16,949 nucleotides of DNA. It comes from an uncultured Sphingobacteriales bacterium (lineage in GTDB: Bacteria > Bacteroidota > Bacteroidia > Chitinophagales > Chitinophagaceae). The stretch covers positions 1-16,949 of the forward strand of contig CAMLFX010000074.1 of assembly GCA_946479435.1 (NCBI GenBank), written 5' to 3'. Positions 1,851-16,949 of this stretch are shown here, one piece after another. The notes under the pieces were generated by a model. It saw only the letters and a list, made by a program, of their open reading frames with translations, searched no databases and had not been told where the DNA came from. A program made the position numbers and the translations under genes. The first letter of the stretch is position 1, and the number at the start of each line of letters is the position of its first letter.

Positions 1851-1868
1851 ATAATAGTATTACTATCC
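1851..1868. promoter_or_regulatory. Probable TetR operator upstream of the exporter operon
   Basis: The block ATAATAGTATTACTATCC contains the 13-base palindrome ATAGTA-T-TACTAT (1854-1866). Fifteen of its first 16 bases recur at 7284-7299 upstream of purK. Its centre lies 31 bases before the -7 TTTGC, over the -33 region, where a repressor would block RNA polymerase. An extra half-site AATAATAG is at 1822-1829. The TetR-family gene at 6316-7008 is the obvious candidate binder. Confidence 0.6.
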
Positions 1869-1886
1869 AAAATAGAACATTTACTT

Positions 1887-1895
1887 TAATTTTGC
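1887..1895 (+). promoter_or_regulatory. Bacteroidota -7 promoter box for the exporter operon
   Basis: TAATTTTGC is a perfect match to TAnnTTTGC. It ends 16 bases before the ATG at 1912. A purine-rich AAGGA lies directly against the start codon. No clear -33 TTG is seen. Confidence 0.6.
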
Positions 1896-1911
1896 TGCAA
1901 TCTTCTAAGGA

Positions 1912-3573
1912 ATGGTAAAGATCACACCTTTTAAAAAGTTTCTGGAACTGCTCAAATATGAAAAGTCAGAGATATCGGCTATCTACTTTTATGCTATTCT
2001 GAATGGTCTCGTACAGCTTTCTGTTCCATTGGGCATACAGTCGATCATAAGCTTCGTACTAGGTGGGGCTGTATCCACTTCTCTTGTCCTACTGATCATT
2101 TTTGTGATTGCTGGTGTATTCGTTGGAGGACTGTTACAGATCAACCAAATGAAACTTATTGAAAAAATACAACAGCAGCTTTTTGTCAGGTATTCTTTTC
2201 AATACGCCCATATCATACCGAACTTTAATCTTAAAGGTGTTGACGGCTACTACCTCCCTGAATTGGTAAACCGATTTTTTGACACAATACCATTACAAAA
2301 AAGTATTTCCAAATTGCTGCTGGACATACCTGCGGCTAGCATACAGATCTTGTTTGGACTGATATTGCTTTCTTTTTACCACCCGGTATTTATCGTTTTC
2401 GGCATCTCCCTTTTATTCATTTTGTACCTCATTCTCCGCTCTACTGCAAGTAAGGGTATGGAAACAAGCCTGCTGGAAAGCGATTACAAATATAAAGTGC
2501 TGGGATACCTGGAAGAATTGGCCCGCGTTGTAACATCCTTTAAGTTTTCAAAAAACAAATCGCATCACCTGGTTAAAACGGACGAATATGTTGCAGGGTA
2601 TCTAAATGCTCGCACCGCACATTTTAAAATATTGCTCTTCCAGTATTGGACGCTCGTTGCTTTTAAGATACTGATCACTTCAGCTATGCTGATTGTTGGT
2701 GCTTACCTGCTGATAACACAGCAACTGAATATTGGCCAGTTTATAGCTGCTGAAATCGTGATCCTGCTGATCATAAGTTCCATCGAAAAGCTGATTATGA
2801 ACCTCGATAAAATATACGACGTAATGACCTCGATAGAGAAGATCACTAAGGTTACTGACAAACCAACAGAGAAACAAGGTGGTATAGATCTGGATACCGG
2901 GGCCAACGGTGTATCGATCGATGCGCAAAACCTTTCATTTGGGTACGAGGGCGAAGAAAACCTGCTGACAGATATTTCTTTCAGCGTCAGAAAAGGAGAG
3001 AAAGTATGTCTTCAGGGAGCATATGGCGTTGGAAAATCTACATTGCTTCGTCTGCTCAGCGGAACCTATACTGATTTTGGTGGCAACCTGCTAATTGACG
3101 GAATTCCAATTTATACCTACAATCTCTATTCTTTGCGTAGCCAAACAGGTATCATGCTGCACCACCAAGAACTCTTTCATGGAACTATCCAGGAAAATAT
3201 CTGCATGGGTAATGAACAGGTGAACTATCGTGAATTAGATTTTCTGGCAGATCTTGTCGGGCTAAAAACTTTTATCCATTCGAAAAAAGAAGGCTACGAA
3301 TTTCTGATACAACCAGCAGGGCAACACCTGTCGGGCCGGATCATCAAAAAAATACTTCTGATGCGGGCACTCGTACAACACCCTAAACTGTTGCTGCTTG
3401 AAGAGCCCTGGCAAGGTATGGAGCTGATATACCAGCAAAGGCTACAACAATATTTATTGAAAGACCTGCCTGGTACCACCGTCATGGTAGTTACCAACGA
3501 TCAGCAGTTCAGCAGCCAATGCGACAAAATCTTTATGCTGGATAAAGGAACCATCACACAGATAATGCAATAA
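1912..3573 (+). CDS. ABC exporter: membrane and ATPase fusion with degenerate NBD motifs
   Basis: A 553-residue half-transporter. Residues 20-300 form the membrane domain, with hydrophobic helices at about 21-50, 57-78, 140-176 and 245-292, and no N-terminal peptidase domain. Residues 335-553 form the ATPase domain. Walker A is intact (GAYGVGKST, 369-377) and a Q-loop Gln is at about 419. The signature is LSGRI (473-477) rather than LSGGQ, Walker B reads LLLLEE (Glu at 497 in place of Asp), and the H-loop position is Asn (VTND, 529) rather than His. It begins a tightly packed operon with an HlyD-type adaptor and a TolC-type channel, so it should power export across both membranes. The substrate is unknown; type I systems carry peptides, proteins or small toxic compounds. 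The start is supported by AAGGA before the ATG and a -7 box 16 bases upstream. Confidence 0.9.
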   Translation: MVKITPFKKFLELLKYEKSEISAIYFYAILNGLVQLSVPLGIQSIISFVLGGAVSTSLVLLIIFVIAGVFVGGLLQINQMKLIEKIQQQLFVRYSFQYAHIIPNFNLKGVDGYYLPELVNRFFDTIPLQKSISKLLLDIPAASIQILFGLILLSFYHPVFIVFGISLLFILYLILRSTASKGMETSLLESDYKYKVLGYLEELARVVTSFKFSKNKSHHLVKTDEYVAGYLNARTAHFKILLFQYWTLVAFKILITSAMLIVGAYLLITQQLNIGQFIAAEIVILLIISSIEKLIMNLDKIYDVMTSIEKITKVTDKPTEKQGGIDLDTGANGVSIDAQNLSFGYEGEENLLTDISFSVRKGEKVCLQGAYGVGKSTLLRLLSGTYTDFGGNLLIDGIPIYTYNLYSLRSQTGIMLHHQELFHGTIQENICMGNEQVNYRELDFLADLVGLKTFIHSKKEGYEFLIQPAGQHLSGRIIKKILLMRALVQHPKLLLLEEPWQGMELIYQQRLQQYLLKDLPGTTVMVVTNDQQFSSQCDKIFMLDKGTITQIMQ

Positions 3574-3578
3574 TAAAC

Positions 3579-4928
3579 ATGCAAGAAGTTAGAAAAATAG
3601 TGGAAGCGGAGGTGGCTGGGAAACCGGTGAGATCATTTGCAACTGTGTACCGTTCAAATGTGAAAAGTAACATCAGGATTTGGGTATATGGTATTTTGCT
3701 GGCCCTTTTGATTGTACTGTTCCTGCCCTGGACACAAAACATTCGCGCAAGGGGCTCTGTAACGACGCTCAGCCAGGAGTATCGGCCGCAGGAACTCAAT
3801 ACGATCATCGCGGGACGCATCGTTAAATGGTATATAAAGGAAGGTGATTTTGTAAAGGAAGGTGATACCATTGCCCAGTTGGCGGAGATAAAAGATAATT
3901 ACCTCGACCCTGAATTGCTAACCCGGACTCAGGAGCAGATAAATGCTAAATCTGCATCTATAACATCTTACAGCAGGAAGGCAGCTGCTAATACAGCGCA
4001 GATGACTGCCATCGAAAAAGCGCGGGTGCTCAAGCAGGAACAACTGGAAAATAAACTGAAGCAGCTGGATCTGAAGATAACCAGCGATAGCATGGAAATG
4101 ATAGCTGCAAGGAATGACTTCCGAATAGCCGAAGAACAATACAGACGTCAGCAGATCATGCGGGATAGCGGACTTGCATCACTCGTACAGGTTGAGCAGC
4201 GTATGGCGGGATATCAGAATGCAATGGCAAAAAAAATAAGTGCTGAGATAAAATTTACAAATACAAAAACAGACCTCACCAATACCAGGCTGGAACTTAA
4301 TCAGGTAGCCCAGGAATATGCAGAGAAAATATATAAAGCTGAGGCGGACCGGGCAGCTGCACAGAGTGAGATCGCATCAGGCCAGGGAGAGTTGTCTAAA
4401 CTTTCAAATCAGTATGCCAACTATACAATACGGGCCGGCCAATACTACCTGCTGGCGCCCCAGAGTGGGCAGATCGTAAAGGCTACAAAGGCTGGTATAA
4501 ACGAGATCGTAAAGGAAGGTGAAAAACTAGTGGAGATCGTGCCATCAAAACCCGACTATGCTGTAGAGATGTTCGTTCGCCCGCTCGACTTGCCTTTATT
4601 ATCAAAAGGGCAGCAGGTAAGGTTTATGTTTGACGGCTTTCCTGCTATCGTATTCAGTGGTTGGCCCGAGGCTTCGTATGGTACGTTTGGTGGTCGTATA
4701 GTCGCTATTGAGAGTTCTGTAAGCAGCAATGGAAAATTCAGGGTACTCGTAGGTGAAGACCCCTCTGACCGGCCATGGCCTAAAGCGTTGAAAATGGGCA
4801 CCGGTGCATCTTCCATAGCCTTGCTCAGGGATGTTCCCATATGGTACGAACTGTGGCGCAACATCAATGGGTTTCCGCCGGACTACTACCAGGATAAAGA
4901 AAAGAAAGATGAAAAAAATAAGCAATAG
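3579..4928 (+). CDS. HlyD-family periplasmic adaptor
   Basis: A 449-residue membrane-fusion protein that would bridge the inner-membrane ABC transporter and the outer-membrane channel. It has a short cytoplasmic N-terminus, one membrane helix at about 33-51 (IWVYGILLALLIVLFLPW), a first lipoyl half at about 70-103 (IIAGRIVKWYIKEGDFVKEG), a long coiled coil at about 110-285, a second lipoyl half (APQSGQIVKATKAG, about 293-325), and a beta-barrel region (VRFMFDGFPAI). The C-terminus is Lys- and Glu-rich. The start lies 5 bases after the ABC stop codon and the end overlaps the TolC gene by 20 bases, so the three are translated as a unit. The long hairpin resembles HlyD-type adaptors more than RND-pump adaptors. 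Confidence 0.92.
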   Translation: MQEVRKIVEAEVAGKPVRSFATVYRSNVKSNIRIWVYGILLALLIVLFLPWTQNIRARGSVTTLSQEYRPQELNTIIAGRIVKWYIKEGDFVKEGDTIAQLAEIKDNYLDPELLTRTQEQINAKSASITSYSRKAAANTAQMTAIEKARVLKQEQLENKLKQLDLKITSDSMEMIAARNDFRIAEEQYRRQQIMRDSGLASLVQVEQRMAGYQNAMAKKISAEIKFTNTKTDLTNTRLELNQVAQEYAEKIYKAEADRAAAQSEIASGQGELSKLSNQYANYTIRAGQYYLLAPQSGQIVKATKAGINEIVKEGEKLVEIVPSKPDYAVEMFVRPLDLPLLSKGQQVRFMFDGFPAIVFSGWPEASYGTFGGRIVAIESSVSSNGKFRVLVGEDPSDRPWPKALKMGTGASSIALLRDVPIWYELWRNINGFPPDYYQDKEKKDEKNKQ

Positions 4929-6312
4929 GTCCTGTTTGCTTGCATGCCTGCTGTTATGCTGTATCTTCTGCCAGGCACAGGATACTACTGCAATATTGGG
5001 CAGAGATGAGTTTATAAGCATTTTACGCAAATACCACCCGGTTCTCAGGCAGGCTGACTTGCAGGTAGAACGTGCTGCAGCAGGAATTCTGGAGGCACGC
5101 GGAGCTTTCGATCCGAGAATCGATGCGGGGCTGGACCGAAAAACTTTTGATGATAAGCTTTACTATAGTTATTTCAACCCCCAGATAACTATCCCGACCT
5201 GGTATGGTATAGACATCAAGGCGGGTGCTGAAGAGGTGCTTGGTGAGCGCGTAACAACTGAAGCTACACTTGGTAGAACCAGCTATCTCGGTGTAAAGAT
5301 ACCAGCTAACAACCTGTTCTTCGACAGCAGGAGGGCTACATTGAGACAGGCACAGAGCCTCCGGCAGCTTAGTGAAGCGGAACGTTCGCTTATAATCAAC
5401 GATCTGGTTTTTGATGCACTCAGTGCCTATTGGAATTGGGTGCGGGAATACCAGTTGTATAAAATAATTGCTACTGCTGTACTGGTAAACGAAGAGCGTA
5501 TGAGGTTTGTAGTAACGGAATATGAGCAGGGCAACAGGCCAGCTATAGATACTACCGAAGCTATGACGCAACTTCAGGGTTTTTACCTTCAGCAGAACAA
5601 CGCTTGGCTGTCTTTCCAGAACGCAGGGCTTGAACTGTCGAATTATTTGTGGCTGGACCGCAACATGCCTTTTGAGTGGAGTGCTAATATACGCCCTCCG
5701 GAAGCCGAGCTTATAAGCCGGCCTGAAGTGCCCGCGTTGGAAAACCTCTTAACAGAAACGCTTGACAGCCATCCCAAATTGCAGTCGCTCCGGTATAAAA
5801 CGGACGTTCTGGAAACAGAAAGGCGTCTTAAGGCACAATACTTGCTGCCCAAACTGAATCTCAATGCAAACCTGCTTAGCAAAGGGTACGGTTTGCCAGA
5901 TCAAGTATCGGTACCCTTGCTTGAAAACAACTACAAACTGGGGGTTGATTTCAGCATACCGCTATTTCTTCGCGAAGCGAGAGGCTCATTTCAAGCAGCC
6001 GGAATCAAACTTCAGGAGAACACTACAGAGCAGGAGCGTATGACCCTTCAGTTGCAAAACAAGGTAAAAGCCTACTATAACGATGTTTTACTATTGCAAC
6101 AGCAGTTGGAGCTATATGAGCAGAACCTTCAAAATAATATCAGGCTTTTTCAGGGCGAAAAAATCCGTTTTGAAGGAGGTGAAAGCACATTGTTTGTGCT
6201 CAATACAAGAGAGAATAAGGTGCTGGAAGTGACTCAAAAGCTGACAGAACTCAGGGCAAAATGGCAAAAAAGCTATGCAGGTCTCCTATGGGCAGCCGGA
6301 GTACTGCAGTAA
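4909..6312 (+). CDS. TolC-family outer-membrane efflux protein
   Basis: A 467-residue outer-membrane factor that would form the exit duct of the exporter. I place the start at ATG 4909, overlapping the adaptor gene by 20 bases, because it gives a clean signal peptide (MKKISNRSCLLACLLLCC, then IFCQAQ with cleavage near residue 24). An upstream in-frame ATG at 4831 would prepend a basic non-signal stretch. The mature part shows the long helices of the TolC fold, with two repeated halves (VLRQADLQVERAAAGILEAR near the front; LNLNANL and LGVDFSIPLF in the second half), and ends in a helical region with LTELRAKWQKSYAGLLWAAG. It is the third gene of the exporter operon. Its stop codon is only 3 bases from that of the convergent TetR gene, leaving no room for a separate terminator. 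Confidence 0.92.
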   Translation: MKKISNRSCLLACLLLCCIFCQAQDTTAILGRDEFISILRKYHPVLRQADLQVERAAAGILEARGAFDPRIDAGLDRKTFDDKLYYSYFNPQITIPTWYGIDIKAGAEEVLGERVTTEATLGRTSYLGVKIPANNLFFDSRRATLRQAQSLRQLSEAERSLIINDLVFDALSAYWNWVREYQLYKIIATAVLVNEERMRFVVTEYEQGNRPAIDTTEAMTQLQGFYLQQNNAWLSFQNAGLELSNYLWLDRNMPFEWSANIRPPEAELISRPEVPALENLLTETLDSHPKLQSLRYKTDVLETERRLKAQYLLPKLNLNANLLSKGYGLPDQVSVPLLENNYKLGVDFSIPLFLREARGSFQAAGIKLQENTTEQERMTLQLQNKVKAYYNDVLLLQQQLELYEQNLQNNIRLFQGEKIRFEGGESTLFVLNTRENKVLEVTQKLTELRAKWQKSYAGLLWAAGVLQ

Positions 6313-6315
6313 CAT

Positions 6316-7008
6316 CTATTTTCGGGTTTTGCTGAAGCTATCAAGCGTGCTGAACACAAGGTGATGCAGAAAGTCAACAAGCGGGCCAGCTGTCTTAGCA
6401 TGACCGAAGTCTGTAAGCCTGGGGAGGTTTTCTTGGAAATACATCTGATGATGCGCCGTCTCTATCAAGGTGCTTGCCAGCGAATGAGGGAAAGTAAACC
6501 CCCGCTTATATTCCAGAAAAACTTCAGCAATACGGTGACACAGGTCTTTATAAGGCTTGAATAGCATAGCCTTGTTATCTTCTGTTACATGTTTTGTAAG
6601 GTATGATTTGTCACCTTCCGCTATCACGATCCTGTGCAGTACGCTTTTATCAATATGCTCCAGTATAAATTGATCGGTTTCCTGGAAGGTTAACAGGCGA
6701 ATGATCGTTTTTATCTTCTGCTGTGCATCCTTTACATTATTGGTATGGAAGATGAGTTGATATTCCATCCATGTCCAGAACCAGGTTGTTATATAGGTAA
6801 GCAAACGGTGCTTATTCTCAAAATACCGGTAAATACTCGCTTCTGTTGTGCCCACTTGAATGGCAAGTTTCTTGAACGTAAACTCTTCGAAACCCAGTTC
6901 ATCTATCATCCTGATGCCATTGCTTACAATATTCCGCCCCAGCTCCGAAGTCTCCGGGTCCCTTACATATAGCTTAGGATTCATTTTAATCTGAAGCTGT
7001 AATTCCAT
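6316..7008 (-). CDS. TetR/AcrR-family transcriptional regulator
   Basis: A one-domain regulator with a TetR helix-turn-helix near the N-terminus (FTFKKLAIQVGTTEASIYRY, then FENKHRLL) and an all-helical ligand or dimer domain behind it. The longest frame starts at 7053, but a perfect -7 box TAACTTTGC lies at 7033-7025 inside that extension. I therefore choose the ATG at 7008-7006 (MELQLQIKMN), giving 230 residues. This puts TTTGC 16 bases before the start, as in the exporter and purK promoters. An ATG at 6984 is a further option. It is transcribed towards the exporter operon and away from purK. The motif shared by both promoters suggests that it represses both and perhaps itself. Its ligand is unknown. 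Confidence 0.9.
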   Translation of the reverse strand: MELQLQIKMNPKLYVRDPETSELGRNIVSNGIRMIDELGFEEFTFKKLAIQVGTTEASIYRYFENKHRLLTYITTWFWTWMEYQLIFHTNNVKDAQQKIKTIIRLLTFQETDQFILEHIDKSVLHRIVIAEGDKSYLTKHVTEDNKAMLFKPYKDLCHRIAEVFLEYKRGFTFPHSLASTLIETAHHQMYFQENLPRLTDFGHAKTAGPLVDFLHHLVFSTLDSFSKTRK

Positions 7009-7024
7009 CTCTGAGTATTTGAAA

Positions 7025-7033
7025 GCAAAGTTA
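7025..7033 (-). promoter_or_regulatory. -7 promoter box for the TetR gene
   Basis: On the minus strand this reads TAACTTTGC, a perfect TAnnTTTGC match, 16 bases before the preferred ATG at 7008. It decides the start choice, because transcription would begin downstream of the longest possible start at 7053. Confidence 0.55.
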
Positions 7034-7054
7034 ACCATCATAGATGAATACACT

Positions 7055-7133
7055 GATAAATAATATCTACACTACTATGTAAGGTAGTTTTACTATAATA
7101 ATACAAGCGATCCATTTCTATCTGGATAGTAAT
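7055..7133. promoter_or_regulatory. AT-rich region with operator-like half-sites upstream of the TetR gene
   Basis: Three pieces resemble the operators at 1851 and 7280. ATAAATAATA (7056-7065) is identical to 10 bases at 7280-7289 and lies within GATAAATAATATC, whose centre is 32 bases from the TetR -7 box. CTATAATA is at 7093-7100 and is also found at 1849-1856. GGATAGTAAT (7124-7133) is the exact reverse complement of 1859-1868. No single perfect palindrome is present, so autoregulation is an inference. The rest of the 7054-7279 gap shows no coding signal. Confidence 0.35.
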
Positions 7134-7279
7134 CAACAGTATGGAGTTTAGCAATGTAAAGACTACTACGTCTATATAAAAATCACTGGGTATCATGACG
7201 CCCGACAACTCATTTTGATAGAACAGCATAAAAATATGTGACATGAGATATAACTACCATAAACTATATTTATAATATC

Positions 7280-7304
7280 ATAAATAATAGTATTGCTATT
7301 ATTT
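7280..7304. promoter_or_regulatory. Probable TetR operator upstream of purK
   Basis: A perfect 9-bp inverted repeat, AAATAATAG (7282-7290) and CTATTATTT (7296-7304), surrounds a 5-base centre TATTG. Bases 7284-7299 match 1851-1866 before the exporter operon at 15 of 16 positions. The palindrome overlaps the -33 region of the purK promoter, which fits repression. Confidence 0.65.
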
Positions 7305-7316
7305 GGAATAGATTTA

Positions 7317-7325
7317 TTTCTTTGC
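7317..7325 (+). promoter_or_regulatory. -7-like promoter box for purK-purE
   Basis: TTTCTTTGC differs from TAnnTTTGC at one base and ends 16 bases before the purK ATG, the same spacing as for the exporter and TetR genes. A candidate -33 TTG (7293-7295) lies 21 bases upstream, inside the operator. Confidence 0.5.
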
Positions 7326-7341
7326 CGGAAATTAAGAAACG

Positions 7342-8475
7342 ATGTTACCAAGCGCTAGAGTTGGAATTTTAGGTGGCGGCCAGTTAGGTTCAATGCTGAT
7401 ACGCTATGCGATAGATTATGGTATTGATGTTTCCGTAATGGACAAAGATCCGGATGCTCCGTGTTCCCGATACACAAAATCATTTATGTGTGGTGATCAT
7501 GCCGCCTATGAAGATGTGATGTCATTTGGAGCAGGTCTTGATATTATAACCATAGAAAAAGAACAGGTAAATGTTGAGGCCCTAAAAGCCCTCGAGAGGT
7601 CGGGAGTCAAAATCCACCCTTCAGCAGCTGTTATTGAGGTCATACAGGATAAAGCCAAACAGAAAGAATTTCTTCTCTCAAAAGCGATTCCAGTGGTGCC
7701 GGGCATACTGGTTGAAGACCAGGCAGCACTGTACCGGTTTACTGACAAACTACCCGGATGTCTGAAGAAATGTAAAAGCGGGTATGACGGCTACGGTGTC
7801 ATGATGCTCAAAAAGCCTGAAGATATATCCAATGCTTTTGATGAACCATCTGTACTCGAAGAGTTAGTTTCCATAAAACATGAGATATCTGTGATTGTCT
7901 CCAGAAATGAAGCGGGAGCCATTCAATGCTACGACCCTGTAATGATGATCTTTAACAAAGAGCGGTTCGTACTAGATTTCCAGTTGTGCCCCGCCAATAT
8001 CAGTAACGAACAAGCGATCGAAGCATGTAGTCTCGCTATACGAATTGCAGAAGCGCTTGGCCTGGTGGGCATACTTGCAGTGGAAATGTTCATAACAGAG
8101 GATGGCAAACTGTTGGTAAACGAGCTAGCCCCACGACCACACAACAGTGGCCATCATACTATAGAGGGTTGCACCACATCTCAGTATGAGCAACATTTAC
8201 GGGCCATACTCGGATTGCCGCTGGGGGATACAAAACTTACAGGCAGCACGGTAATGATCAATATATTGGAACCAGCTGCTATGCGTAGAGAATCTATGCA
8301 GCAGGCGCTCAAGACCTTGCTGGGGGTAGGATCCTTGCACTTGCACTGGTATGGCAAGCGGGAAGGACGCACGGGGAGAAAGATCGGGCACATCACGATT
8401 ACAGAACATACAATGGAAAATGCCTTAACCAAGGCGGTAATAGTACGTAACATCCTAAAGAATATAAATGAATAA
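7342..8475 (+). CDS. purK: PurK-like N5-carboxyaminoimidazole ribonucleotide synthase
   Basis: A 377-residue ATP-grasp enzyme of purine synthesis, which normally uses ATP and bicarbonate to carboxylate AIR to N5-CAIR in the cytoplasm. Visible family landmarks are the N-terminal GILGGGQLG (8-16), ITIEKEQVN (69-77), the metal and ATP site LAVEMF...[19 protein letters not shown] (245-275), [17 protein letters not shown], and C-terminal [17 protein letters not shown]. The length is normal. The usual [GA]YDGRG motif reads GYDGYG (147-152), so a strongly conserved Arg is Tyr; the preceding segment KKCKS is also unlike the common K-x-R-x-G. It overlaps purE by 8 bases. A palindromic operator lies upstream. 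It may be the organism's only PurK or a diverged second copy; the window cannot tell. Confidence 0.9.
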
Positions 8476-8977
8476 GCTACAGGTAGGGATCATCATGGGG
8501 AGCAGCTCCGATGCACCGATAATGGAAAAAGCTGCTGCAGTACTAAAGCAATTTGGTATTAGCTATGAATTTTTAGTGGTATCAGCGCACCGCAGCCCAA
8601 CGCGTATGTTCGAATACGCTGAAACGGCAGATGAACGCGGGCTCAGCGTTATCATTGCAGGAGCAGGTGGCTCTGCACACCTTCCGGGCATGATCGCTGC
8701 TATTACAACTATCCCGGTAATAGGGGTGCCGATAAAATCGACTAATTCGCTCGATGGATGGGACAGCCTACTCTCTATTGTACAGATGCCAAATGATATC
8801 CCGGTTGCAACAGTAGCAGTCAACGGAGCACATAATGCCGGCCTGTTGGCGGTACAGATGCTCTCAATCGCTGATGAGAATCTCCGGAATAAACTGGCTA
8901 CTCTGAAGGCAGACAATCATAAAAAAGTACTGCAGCAAAACGATACATTAAACCATAAAGACAAGGGCGAAGCATAG
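8468..8977 (+). CDS. purE: PurE class I N5-CAIR mutase
   Basis: A 169-residue mutase that moves the carboxyl group of N5-CAIR to give CAIR, the step after PurK. The class I signatures are intact: GSSSD (11-15) for phosphate binding, SAHRSP (39-44) with the catalytic His41, [12 protein letters not shown] (64-75), and [14 protein letters not shown]. The C-terminus carries a short Lys- and Asn-rich tail. Its ATG lies inside the end of purK (ATGAATAA overlap), so translation is coupled and one transcript serves both. No substituted key residue is visible, in contrast to its PurK partner. Confidence 0.95.
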
Positions 8978-10807: not shown

Positions 10808-10939
10808 ACATAATCAAACTATCATTTTCTTTTAAGACTTAAACCTGCTTTCTAAAAGTGTTATCTAATTTGAGTGCTTCTTATAGAATAATGGTTTTAG
10901 GAATGATGTTTGTGTGTTGCCTTATAATACTATTTATAT

Positions 10940-11239
10940 ATGGCACTTTCTTTTTCGGAATTAATAAAGCAACCGCAACCGGTTTTAGTTGATTTCTTTG
11001 CTGAATGGTGCGGTCCATGCAAAATGATGAAGCCAATACTGGAAGACTTAAAGTCAAAAATTGGCGATAAAGCAACCATTGTAAAAATAGATATTGATAA
11101 AAATCCTGCTATTGCTTCACAATTTCAAATTCAGGGAGTTCCTACACTTATACTTTTCAAAAATGGGGTTGTGCAGTGGCGGCAAAGTGGTGTTGTACCA
11201 GCTAACCAGTTAGTGCAGATAATAGACAAGTATAAATAA
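10940..11239 (+). CDS. trxA: Thioredoxin
   Basis: A 99-residue cytoplasmic thioredoxin. The redox site WCGPCK is at residues 23-28 (Cys24 and Cys27), preceded by VLVDFFAEW, and the cis-proline loop [11 protein letters not shown] follows at about 66-76. The protein has no signal peptide or extra domain, so it should reduce protein disulfides using thioredoxin reductase. It is slightly shorter than E. coli thioredoxin. It stands alone: AraC is divergent on the left and the next gene starts 205 bp downstream. Bacteria often have several thioredoxins, and whether this is the main one cannot be judged here. Confidence 0.95.
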
Positions 11240-14535: not shown

Positions 14536-16949
14536 ATGACTAAAAGCATCTTTTTATCCACTCTCTTAGTGCTCAGTTTTTTTTCTGTTAAAGCACAGTA
14601 CTCCGGGAACGCATTAGATTTTGATGGCAATAACGATATGGTTGTTAGTAGCACTCTGCCTTCATTTTTTAGTAATCCCGGCTCAAATAACTTTACGGTC
14701 GAGGCGTGGGTGTACCCGCGTGGTTCAGCTTTCCAGCGTATTTTCTTTGCTCAGCCAAACACAAGCAATTTTGTTTCATTAGGTACTGGCATTGGTAATG
14801 TTATCTATTTTTATGTGATATCTGGTGGGGTTACTTATAGCGTAGCAACAACATCATCTATACCTATTAATACATGGTCTCATATTGCTGCCCGTTGGAC
14901 CTCGGCAACAAATACGCCTGAAGTCTTTTTTAATGGAACACTTCAGCCAACTGTAGGTGGTGGCAGTTCCTCAACCGGTACCGACGGGTTGATGACGGTA
15001 GGTAGCAGGCCGGGTGGTTTCCAATATTTTACCGGCGCTATAGATGAGCTACGGGTATGGGGCGCTGCCCGTACCGATTGTGAGATATTAAGTAATATGA
15101 ATAACAGCTTTACAGTTGCGCAGGCCAGCCTTGCTGTTAATTATCATTTCAATCACGGCACTGCTGCGGGTACAAATACTGGCATAACAACTTTATCTGA
15201 TATATCAGGCAATGCTTTCAATGGCACATTGAATAATTTCGCATTATCAGGTTCCACTTCCAACTGGATCGCTTCCGGCGCTACCATTACAGCTTCAGGA
15301 AATACACTTGGCGGACCTCTTTTGAACGAGGTAAGTAATCAAACAGTTTGTAATAATGAATCTGTAACAGCCATAACTTTTACAAGTTCTTCGCCTTCAG
15401 CTACCTATACCTGGACCAATAATAACACCGCTACGGGCCTTGCTGCAAGCGGCAGTGGTGATATTGCTTCATTTACAGGTACAAATAATACTACATCGCC
15501 TATTTCATCGCGTGTTATTGTTACGGCTTCGGCAGGTGGGTGTACTGGTGTGCCTGATACCTTTTTTATACAAGTAAATCCAACACCTACAATTGTGGCA
15601 ACAGGCGACCAGGTATTATGTAATAATACTTCAACAACTGCCATCAATTTTAGTGGCTCTGTTGGTAATGATTATAGCTGGGCAAATAATAATACATCAA
15701 TAGGTTTAGCGTCAAGTGGTACTGGCGATATCAGTGCTTTTACAGCAGTAAATGCAACTATAACTGATGCGGTTGCAACCGTTATAGTTACTCCGTCAAT
15801 TAATACATCCAATATTATTAAAGATAGTTTTGCTTATACTGGCTCATTACAAACTGCGACGGTTCCGGCCGGCTACACTACGGTAAAAATTACAGCGGCT
15901 GGTGCACAAGGTGGCGCAGGCTTCTCCGGAGTTACACCTGGCGGTAAAGGCGCAATCATGTCGGGTCTCTTTAGTGTAACCCCTGGCGATGTTTTACAAG
16001 TGGTTGTTGGGGGAAAAGGTAATGATAATTATCAAACCGGCGGCGGCGGCGGCGGTTCGGGTGTAGTAAGGAGCGGCACCTTGTTAATAGCAGCAGGAGC
16101 CGGTGGAGGCGGTTCACCGTATTCTTATGCGGGTTTTGATGGTGTTACCACTAATACTGCTATGCCTGGCGGGCCAGGTACCGGGTCATTTACTTCGGGT
16201 ACCGCAGGTATTAACGGTGCAAGTGGCGGGGATGTCTTTAATTCAGGTGTTAATGGTAGAGGAGGTAATGGAGTAGATGCCGGGCTATTAGGCTCTTTTG
16301 GTACAAATGGCAGTAGTGCAAACGGTTGCTGGGGTCTTGGTGGTGGTGGTGGTGCCAGTGGTATTTATGGTATATCTGGTGGTGGAGGAGGGTACTCTGG
16401 TGGCGGTGCGGGTGGCAATTTTGGTCCTGGTGGCGGAGGTGGCTCTTATAACATAGGTGCATCACAAACTAATATTGAAGGTACTAATACCGGTAATGGG
16501 TATGTTTTAATAGAATATGCAGCATCAATAGTTTGTACAGGCACACCCGATACCTTTATGATAGTCGTGAAGCCAACACCATCAGTCATTGCAACCAGCG
16601 ATCAATCAGTATGTAATGGAGACGCTGCAACAGCTATCAGTTTCAGCAGTGCAGTAGCAGGTACTACTTATAGCTGGACAAATAATACAACATCAATAGG
16701 CCTTGCTGCGAGCGGCAGTGGTGATATTGCCTCATTTACTGCGGCTAATGCAACATCGGCACCGGTTACAGCGCAAATTATTGTTACACCAACTGCTAAT
16801 GGTTGCCCCGGTACGCCAGATACATTTACTATAACAGTAAAGCCAACGCCAACAGTCAATGCGGTATCTAACCAATCGGTATGTAATGGTGCGGCAACAA
16901 CGGCGATTACCTTTGGTAGTTCGGTGACAGGAACTACTTATGCATGGAC
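14536..16949 (+). CDS. Secreted giant protein: LamG-like domain, PKD-like repeats, glycine-rich insert (partial)
   Basis: An open frame of 804 codons runs to the right edge. The first 21 residues form a signal peptide (MTKSIFLSTLLVLSFFSVKAQ). Residues 24-190 resemble a LamG/concanavalin-like jelly roll (NALDFDGNNDMVV, NFTVEAWVYPRG, IDELRVWGAAR), common in surface proteins that bind glycans or mediate adhesion. From residue 266 come roughly 90-residue PKD-like repeats, each with a conserved Cys in SVCN, Y-[ST]-W, GLAASGSGDIASF, a later C..G.PDTF and a closing PTP; four are started in the window. Between residues about 426 and 665 a glycine-rich domain interrupts repeat 2. Proteins of this type in Bacteroidota are usually T9SS cargo with a C-terminal sorting domain, which here would be beyond the edge. 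Its ligand and function are unknown. No stop or frameshift is seen. Confidence 0.88.
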   Translation, partial: MTKSIFLSTLLVLSFFSVKAQYSGNALDFDGNNDMVVSSTLPSFFSNPGSNNFTVEAWVYPRGSAFQRIFFAQPNTSNFVSLGTGIGNVIYFYVISGGVTYSVATTSSIPINTWSHIAARWTSATNTPEVFFNGTLQPTVGGGSSSTGTDGLMTVGSRPGGFQYFTGAIDELRVWGAARTDCEILSNMNNSFTVAQASLAVNYHFNHGTAAGTNTGITTLSDISGNAFNGTLNNFALSGSTSNWIASGATITASGNTLGGPLLNEVSNQTVCNNESVTAITFTSSSPSATYTWTNNNTATGLAASGSGDIASFTGTNNTTSPISSRVIVTASAGGCTGVPDTFFIQVNPTPTIVATGDQVLCNNTSTTAINFSGSVGNDYSWANNNTSIGLASSGTGDISAFTAVNATITDAVATVIVTPSINTSNIIKDSFAYTGSLQTATVPAGYTTVKITAAGAQGGAGFSGVTPGGKGAIMSGLFSVTPGDVLQVVVGGKGNDNYQTGGGGGGSGVVRSGTLLIAAGAGGGGSPYSYAGFDGVTTNTAMPGGPGTGSFTSGTAGINGASGGDVFNSGVNGRGGNGVDAGLLGSFGTNGSSANGCWGLGGGGGASGIYGISGGGGGYSGGGAGGNFGPGGGGGSYNIGASQTNIEGTNTGNGYVLIEYAASIVCTGTPDTFMIVVKPTPSVIATSDQSVCNGDAATAISFSSAVAGTTYSWTNNTTSIGLAASGSGDIASFTAANATSAPVTAQIIVTPTANGCPGTPDTFTITVKPTPTVNAVSNQSVCNGAATTAITFGSSVTGTTYAW
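15331..16949 (+). repeat. Array of about 90-residue PKD-like repeats
   Basis: Repeat starts are near codons 266, 352, 683 and 773 (bases 15331, 15589, 16582, 16852). The complete third repeat is 270 bp. The fourth is cut by the window edge. Repeats 1 and 3 share a 40-base segment (15436-15475 and 16699-16738) with only two silent differences, while repeat 2 is more diverged. Each repeat has a pair of Cys that could form a disulfide outside the cell. Confidence 0.85.
15811..16530 (+). other. Glycine-rich domain inserted within a PKD-like repeat
   Basis: About 240 residues begin DSFAYTGSLQTATVPAGYTT, continue with VKITAAGAQGGAG and VTPGDVLQVVVGGKG, include many GGGG runs, and end GNGYVLIEYA. 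This is the layout of the glycine-rich domain found in ALK/LTK receptors and in many bacterial surface proteins (Pfam ALK_LTK_GRD type, by recall). Repeat 2 is split around it: its front ends VIVTPSINTS and its end resumes IVCTGTPDTFMIVVKPTP, where repeat 3 runs straight through as IIVTPTANGCPGTPDTF. Confidence 0.7.

Follow-up and report, generated by a model that had tools for sequence, protein, structure and literature searches.

A TetR-family regulator probably tying purK-purE and an ABC-HlyD-TolC trio to bicarbonate supply and use

In autotrophs, the regulators CmpR and CcmR/NdhR, both of the LysR type, and cyAbrB respond to inorganic carbon and control bicarbonate transporters together with related genes. 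Heterotrophs require HCO3- for purines, pyrimidines, fatty acids and anaplerosis, and to our knowledge the sensing of its supply by these organisms is little studied. Here, we describe a TetR-family regulator encoded on a 16,949-nucleotide stretch of DNA from an uncultured Sphingobacteriales bacterium (contig CAMLFX010000074.1; hereafter the window), and its predicted operator, which stands before an ABC-HlyD-TolC gene trio and before the purine synthesis genes purK and purE. The theme joining these two groups of genes is probably the supply of CO2 and bicarbonate, not drug export or purines.

The likeness to CmpR, CcmR/NdhR and cyAbrB lies in the targets, here predicted, which are again bicarbonate transporters and related genes. 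In contrast, the autotroph regulators belong to other protein families and serve Rubisco-based carbon concentration, whereas loci of the window-type TetR occur mostly in Bacteroidota and hold PurK, CarB and biotin carboxylases. Modules of SulP and carbonic anhydrase (CA) supply HCO3- for carboxylation (PMC11423575), and MpsAB supplies HCO3- with purine synthesis named among the uses (PMC6689103); the accessible text of these two papers names no TetR regulator of this kind. Compared with such modules, the ten scanned window proteins include neither SulP nor CA, and the trio is found in their place. Among the titles and abstract beginnings listed, a literature search with most subscription papers outside its scope revealed neither a TetR regulator of CA or bicarbonate carriers nor a description of this regulon.

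With the TetR/AcrR repressors (PF00440) the protein shares the helix-turn-helix domain TetR_N (31.6 bits, cut-off 24), a palindromic site at the promoters of its own gene and of neighbours, and an all-helical predicted model (pLDDT 91.9). It differs from them in the effector domain, where E131, K134, N145, K154, C157, E183 and Q188 are invariant among 94 aligned sequences. Among the 60 solved TetR sequences listed, the best match is confined to a stretch between about residues 14 and 140, and none of the six matches in an NCBIfam scan reached its cut-off. Structural neighbours of the model (AibR, FadR, SlmA) are weak and name no ligand.

The operator motif in the window

The genes and predicted sites under study are the following.

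1852–1868, no strand: predicted TetR operator A, TAATAGTATTACTATCC, preceding ABC-HlyD-TolC and separated by 18 bases from TAATTTTG downstream; 21.1 bits, second in the window
1887–1894, plus strand: probable -7 element of the ABC operon promoter, TAATTTTG (TAnnTTTG), from sequence and spacing
1912–3573, plus strand: ABC-exporter-like protein with degenerate nucleotide-binding domain (NBD); PF00664, PF00005
3579–4928, plus strand: HlyD-type periplasmic adaptor; PF13437, TIGR01843 below cut-off
4909–6312, plus strand: TolC-type outer-membrane channel; PF02321
6316–7008, minus strand: tetR, TetR-family regulator of 230 amino acids starting MELQLQIKMNP; PF00440
7082–7098, no strand: predicted weak third operator before tetR; 12.9 bits, third-best in the window
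7285–7301, no strand: predicted TetR operator B, TAATAGTATTGCTATTA, before purK-purE; 21.9 bits, first in the window
7342–8475, plus strand: purK, ATP- and HCO3--dependent synthetase of N5-carboxyaminoimidazole ribonucleotide (N5-CAIR); TIGR01161, 347.9 bits, cut-off 318.4
8468–8977, plus strand: purE, N5-CAIR mutase, overlapping purK; TIGR01162, 215.8 bits, cut-off 149.6

A preliminary description of this DNA had proposed one TetR-type operator common to the ABC-HlyD-TolC operon and purK-purE. Its two 16-mers, ATAATAGTATTACTAT at 1851–1866 and ATAATAGTATTGCTAT at 7284–7299, are indeed the sole zero-mismatch matches to their common pattern ATAATAGTATTNCTAT in the window, and the palindromes (6-bp arms around one base; 9-bp arms around five) read as it claimed. 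A scoring matrix was derived from 63 other loci whose TetR has no more than 59% identity, without any input from the window. The best score of this matrix over 300 simulated windows was 18.7 bits, compared to 21.9 and 21.1 bits for operators B and A. When simulation was limited to the two upstream regions (842 bases) and repeated 2000 times, a single site of at least 15 bits was obtained 12 times, with a maximum of 21.6 bits. The half-sites said to be scattered before tetR are present, and they include the weak full site at 7082–7098, which makes autoregulation of tetR possible.

The distance between TTTGC and ATG is 16 bases for all three genes including tetR, as described previously; between the end of the 16-mer and TTTGC we measured 24 and 21 bases instead of 28–31. 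The Bacteroidota -7 promoter element has the consensus TAnnTTTG, of which TTTGC is probably a part, and the constant 16-base spacing therefore looks like promoter geometry. Equal spacing was dropped as a sign of TetR binding. The exact TAnnTTTG is not present at the purK promoter of the window. A two-mismatch copy of the motif at 10924–10939, right before a thioredoxin-like open reading frame (ORF) at 10940, is outside the best 12 matrix scores.

Conservation of the operator in relatives

Close homologues of the TetR were aligned, the alignment was used to scan one genome per species, and the best 80 of 470 confirmed loci were used (loci are numbered with L, genomes with G). A site matching 10 or more of the 12 core bases was found within 200 bases before tetR in 63 of the 69 loci L012–L080, whose TetR is at most 59% identical; it is perfect (12/12) in 32 of these 63, and its consensus is TGATAGTAWTACTATCA. 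The hosts of the TetR loci include many Bacteroidota and also Methylobacter and Nitrotoga. In 11 of the 17 ABC or purK promoters of relatives inspected, the site ends 15–19 bases before TAnnTTTG; the distance to the box is 8 bases in one further promoter and the exact box is absent in five. A position just before this box would suit blocking of the promoter.

The operator is kept before purK in L001 (score 21.3) and in L005, L006 and L007 (26.0), and a purK-linked site closer to tetR in L123 scored 17.4. Where purK is held within a gene run, the head of the run scored 17.2 (L003), 24.6 (L046) and 24.7 (L132, L133). In G002, a diverged PurK-like protein linked to tetR (L002, 8743–9870; 30% identity, Pfam ATP-grasp only) has the operator, and the PurK_C gene of the same genome (L138) lies elsewhere without a site. 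The operator is absent from all 49 scanned purK genes unlinked to this TetR (scores at most 5.1), which comprise 12 in TetR-bearing genomes and 37 in genomes where no TetR matched at E 1e-40. The 117 genomes gave 99 PurK_C matches, from which 50 unlinked loci were taken; one of these, L175, had no upstream sequence.

The ABC promoters behave similarly: 22 of 36 TetR-linked rows scored at least 15.6, as against none of the 19 rows from TetR-less genomes (L143–L161; best score 4.2). Second copies of TetR-bearing loci (L084, L087, L091, L100, L101, L105, L115) were left out of the ABC promoter count, and L162 was left out of the TetR-less rows. At L162, an operator (1362–1374) precedes the ABC gene of G054; no TetR is present on its 4-kb contig or was found in that genome at E 1e-40.

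Could both window sites be chance look-alikes of AT-rich promoters? The regions are AT-rich, a single simulated site reached up to 21.6 bits as given above, and a 15-base core pattern, like its reversed control, matched many genomes without this TetR. The independent matrix, in turn, ranks both sites first and second in the window, and the sites are conserved in relatives and absent at unlinked purK and ABC promoters, so that this explanation is already contradicted and has next to no credibility left. Matrix ranks and conservation thus support the common operator proposed earlier; in related genomes it is kept before these genes, and the genes remain neighbours. A genome-wide regulon based on the 15-base core pattern was rejected: matches occurred in 70 of 117 genomes, the reversed control was wide too, and TetR is present in only 17 of the 117. 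Additional exact sites inspected in G001, G002 and G007 revealed no convincing promoter.

Gene neighbourhoods and the bicarbonate theme

Neighbouring genes were labelled in 96 TetR loci including the window, by Pfam for examples and by similarity for the rest. SulP, bestrophin, beta-CA, PurK, CarB or pyruvate carboxylase (Pyc) lie nearby in 56 of them. CA is found within 5 kb of tetR in 42 of the 96 loci, compared to a background of 43 matches in 24 genomes of ~112 Mb (~0.4% per 10 kb). The neighbour types comprise SulP with beta-CA, bestrophin with CA, and CA alone, and operator sites lie between tetR and the SulP, bestrophin, CA or CarB genes. CarB stands beside tetR in L012 and L017, with biotin carboxylase and a DUF6671 gene behind it in L012; subunits of the pyruvate carboxylase type occur at L019, L033 and L061. 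SbtA (PF05982; L002, L003, L022, L067) and Sua5 (Pfam-confirmed in L002, L003, L019, L022 and L067, and clustering with L033) were not among the labels, and L067, labelled as having none, has both. L004 is labelled purK only, its contig ending inside HlyD, and ABC matches below 34% identity (L047) were not labelled as the trio, although L047 is still among the 36 ABC promoter rows.

PurK shares with CarB, biotin carboxylases and Sua5 the use of HCO3- as a substrate, which points to inorganic carbon as the common theme. Most of the CA, SulP, bestrophin, SbtA, CarB or pyruvate carboxylase neighbourhoods of this TetR are without purK or purE. Where purKE accompany tetR in relatives, the arrangements include purK-purE-CA (L005, L006), bestrophin-CA-purK-purE (L046) and tetR-ABC-HlyD-TolC-purK-purE (L132, L133). 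On a quick tree of 96 sequences, in which 40 of 92 inner branches were open, the fewest changes were 11 for the trio, 13 for SulP, 8 for bestrophin, 4 for purK and 2 for CarB, so that modules seem to swap beside one regulator. DUF2490-like proteins recur beside SulP/CA (11 loci in one cluster, among them L015, L019, L033, L040 and L043–L045), and a DUF6671-like cluster recurs in nine TetR loci.

Anion carriers and CA are able to serve pH balance, and both are among the neighbour families. The regulator might accordingly be a switch for cytoplasmic pH, served by CA, SulP and bestrophin, with the enzymes following. However, PurK, CarB, biotin carboxylases and Sua5 have HCO3- as substrate in common and no role in pH, and we regard a pH switch as unlikely. 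A purine intermediate, aminoimidazole ribonucleotide (AIR) or its carboxylated form CAIR, would be another conceivable signal, the CA contexts then belonging to unrelated paralogues. Such a link, raised in the preliminary description for a purine-like or AIR/CAIR-related compound, agrees with the operator at purK in the clade of the window, where the sequence searched of G001 and G003–G007 contains no PurK_C match besides the linked purK. It is not supported across the family: the same TetR and operator stand mostly in contexts without purK or purE, and the invariant charged effector-domain residues, together with the same operator sequence across contexts, suggest one ligand. A purine signal is therefore very improbable.

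PurK hands HCO3- to PurE, and very high inorganic carbon lets PurE carboxylate AIR without PurK; cyanobacterial purK mutants require high CO2 (accessible text of PMC10880623). We consider it likely that this TetR family is a repressor of bicarbonate supply and use which is relieved when inorganic carbon becomes scarce. The protein encoded at 6316–7008 would bind operators resembling TGATAGTAWTACTATCA that overlap target promoters or lie immediately before them. The family would govern the bicarbonate economy through carriers (SulP, bestrophin, SbtA), beta-CA and HCO3--using enzymes (PurK, CarB, biotin carboxylases, Sua5); in the window, the targets would be purK-purE and the ABC-HlyD-TolC trio, with tetR itself as a probable third. 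Since PurE can dispense with PurK at ample CO2/HCO3-, the genes would be kept down under such conditions, and upon scarcity the repressor would be released, the signal being HCO3-/CO2 or a metabolite reporting it. The operator, its conservation and the neighbourhoods are established by sequence comparison; from them we infer DNA binding, repression and its direction, and the identity of the signal.

Several observations weigh against such a role or narrow it. In L004, tetR and purK lie side by side, yet purK scored -4.5, the sole exception of this kind, and the scanned purK of 12 TetR-bearing genomes is neither linked nor preceded by a site; purK would hence be an optional target. No site lies directly before ABC in 14 of the 36 TetR-linked rows. 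Among these 14, tetR is upstream on the same strand in L022, L071, L079 and L132–L136, and SulP-CA stands between tetR and ABC in L034; in all these the site is found instead before tetR or between tetR and SulP. In 27 of the 96 loci the trio is the only labelled module, and 10 of the 96 have none of the genes sought. Beta-CA is present in all 24 genomes searched, with the linked copy one of three in G005 and G006, and CA is thus not run through linkage to this TetR alone. Isocitrate dehydrogenase (L064, L071), POR (L050), DUF2490 and DUF6671 neighbours fit less directly.

The ABC-HlyD-TolC trio

The trio resembles type I secretion systems (HlyB, PCAT1, LssB) in its adaptor and channel and in the fold of an NBD-less relative, L070, whose model matches the ABC exporters PCAT1, the HlyB/D complex and Sav1866. 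It differs from them in that all 25 NCBIfam matches listed for the window ABC protein are below cut-off, in degenerate ATPase motifs or loss of the domain, and in linkage to CA at some loci. In the window protein Walker A is kept, the Walker B Asp is replaced by Glu, LSGGQ reads LSGRI and the H-loop His is Asn. Among 121 sequences (window and 120 close relatives), Walker A (GKS) is intact in all, being lost in a few distant sequences; Glu replaces the Walker B Asp in 119, and neither LSGGQ nor the H-loop His occurs in any. A wider set of 45 rows contains an NBD in 35, of which five have the Walker B Asp, none LSGGQ and one (L150) the H-loop His. The ten NBD-less rows consist of six with the membrane domain alone and four with the membrane domain fused to HlyD (Pfam on L018, L070, L074).

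Within the family of G006 (117 genomes), TetR is present in 17 genomes, ABC in 42 and both in 13, so that ABC occurs in 13 of 17 TetR-bearing and 29 of 100 TetR-less genomes. This association, and the position of TetR beside ABC-HlyD-TolC in the window and many relatives, would be expected of an efflux repressor which senses a toxic drug or metabolite and derepresses the pump, with purKE as a side target boosting purine supply, the view taken in the preliminary description. Against this stand the motif and domain losses just described, which leave the assumption of an ordinary efflux operon unsupported. Moreover, at loci that lack the trio, this TetR and its operator are found next to SulP/CA, bestrophin/CA, CarB and purKE-CA. 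CA also lies near the trio at 8 of 19 TetR-less loci, six of these eight having SulP as well (loci from the 29 such genomes, mostly top scorers; three CAs and one SulP Pfam-checked), and the TetR-bearing L034 has the order SulP-CA-ABC-HlyD-TolC. An efflux repressor is thus improbable.

The trio is tied to inorganic-carbon genes by two routes, linkage to the TetR and, in TetR-less genomes, linkage to CA. Tentatively, and with considerable doubt, we propose that it might form a new kind of HCO3-/CO2 conduit through both membranes, combining an ABC-exporter fold with decayed or lost ATPase, an adaptor of the HlyD type and a TolC channel. It would be placed under a bicarbonate-responsive TetR repressor which also times PurK, CarB, carboxylases and CA in heterotrophic bacteria. 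Secretion or another role in place of that of a conduit is possible.

Elsewhere in the window, an ECF-type sigma factor is encoded within 208–1402, followed by an ORF (839–1402) which gave no Pfam match at E 0.001 and has an unusual C-terminus; this ORF may be a truncated anti-sigma gene. An open-ended ORF of 804 amino acids at 14536–16947 resembles a secreted or surface protein of repetitive sequence.

The proposed regulation would give a predicted role to regulators which so far have been named merely TetR/AcrR, and a guess at the function of a tripartite system whose ABC gene is present in 42 of the 117 genomes surveyed from a single family. As one operator appears to tie suppliers of HCO3- to its users, the question of how heterotrophs sense their bicarbonate supply becomes directly testable.

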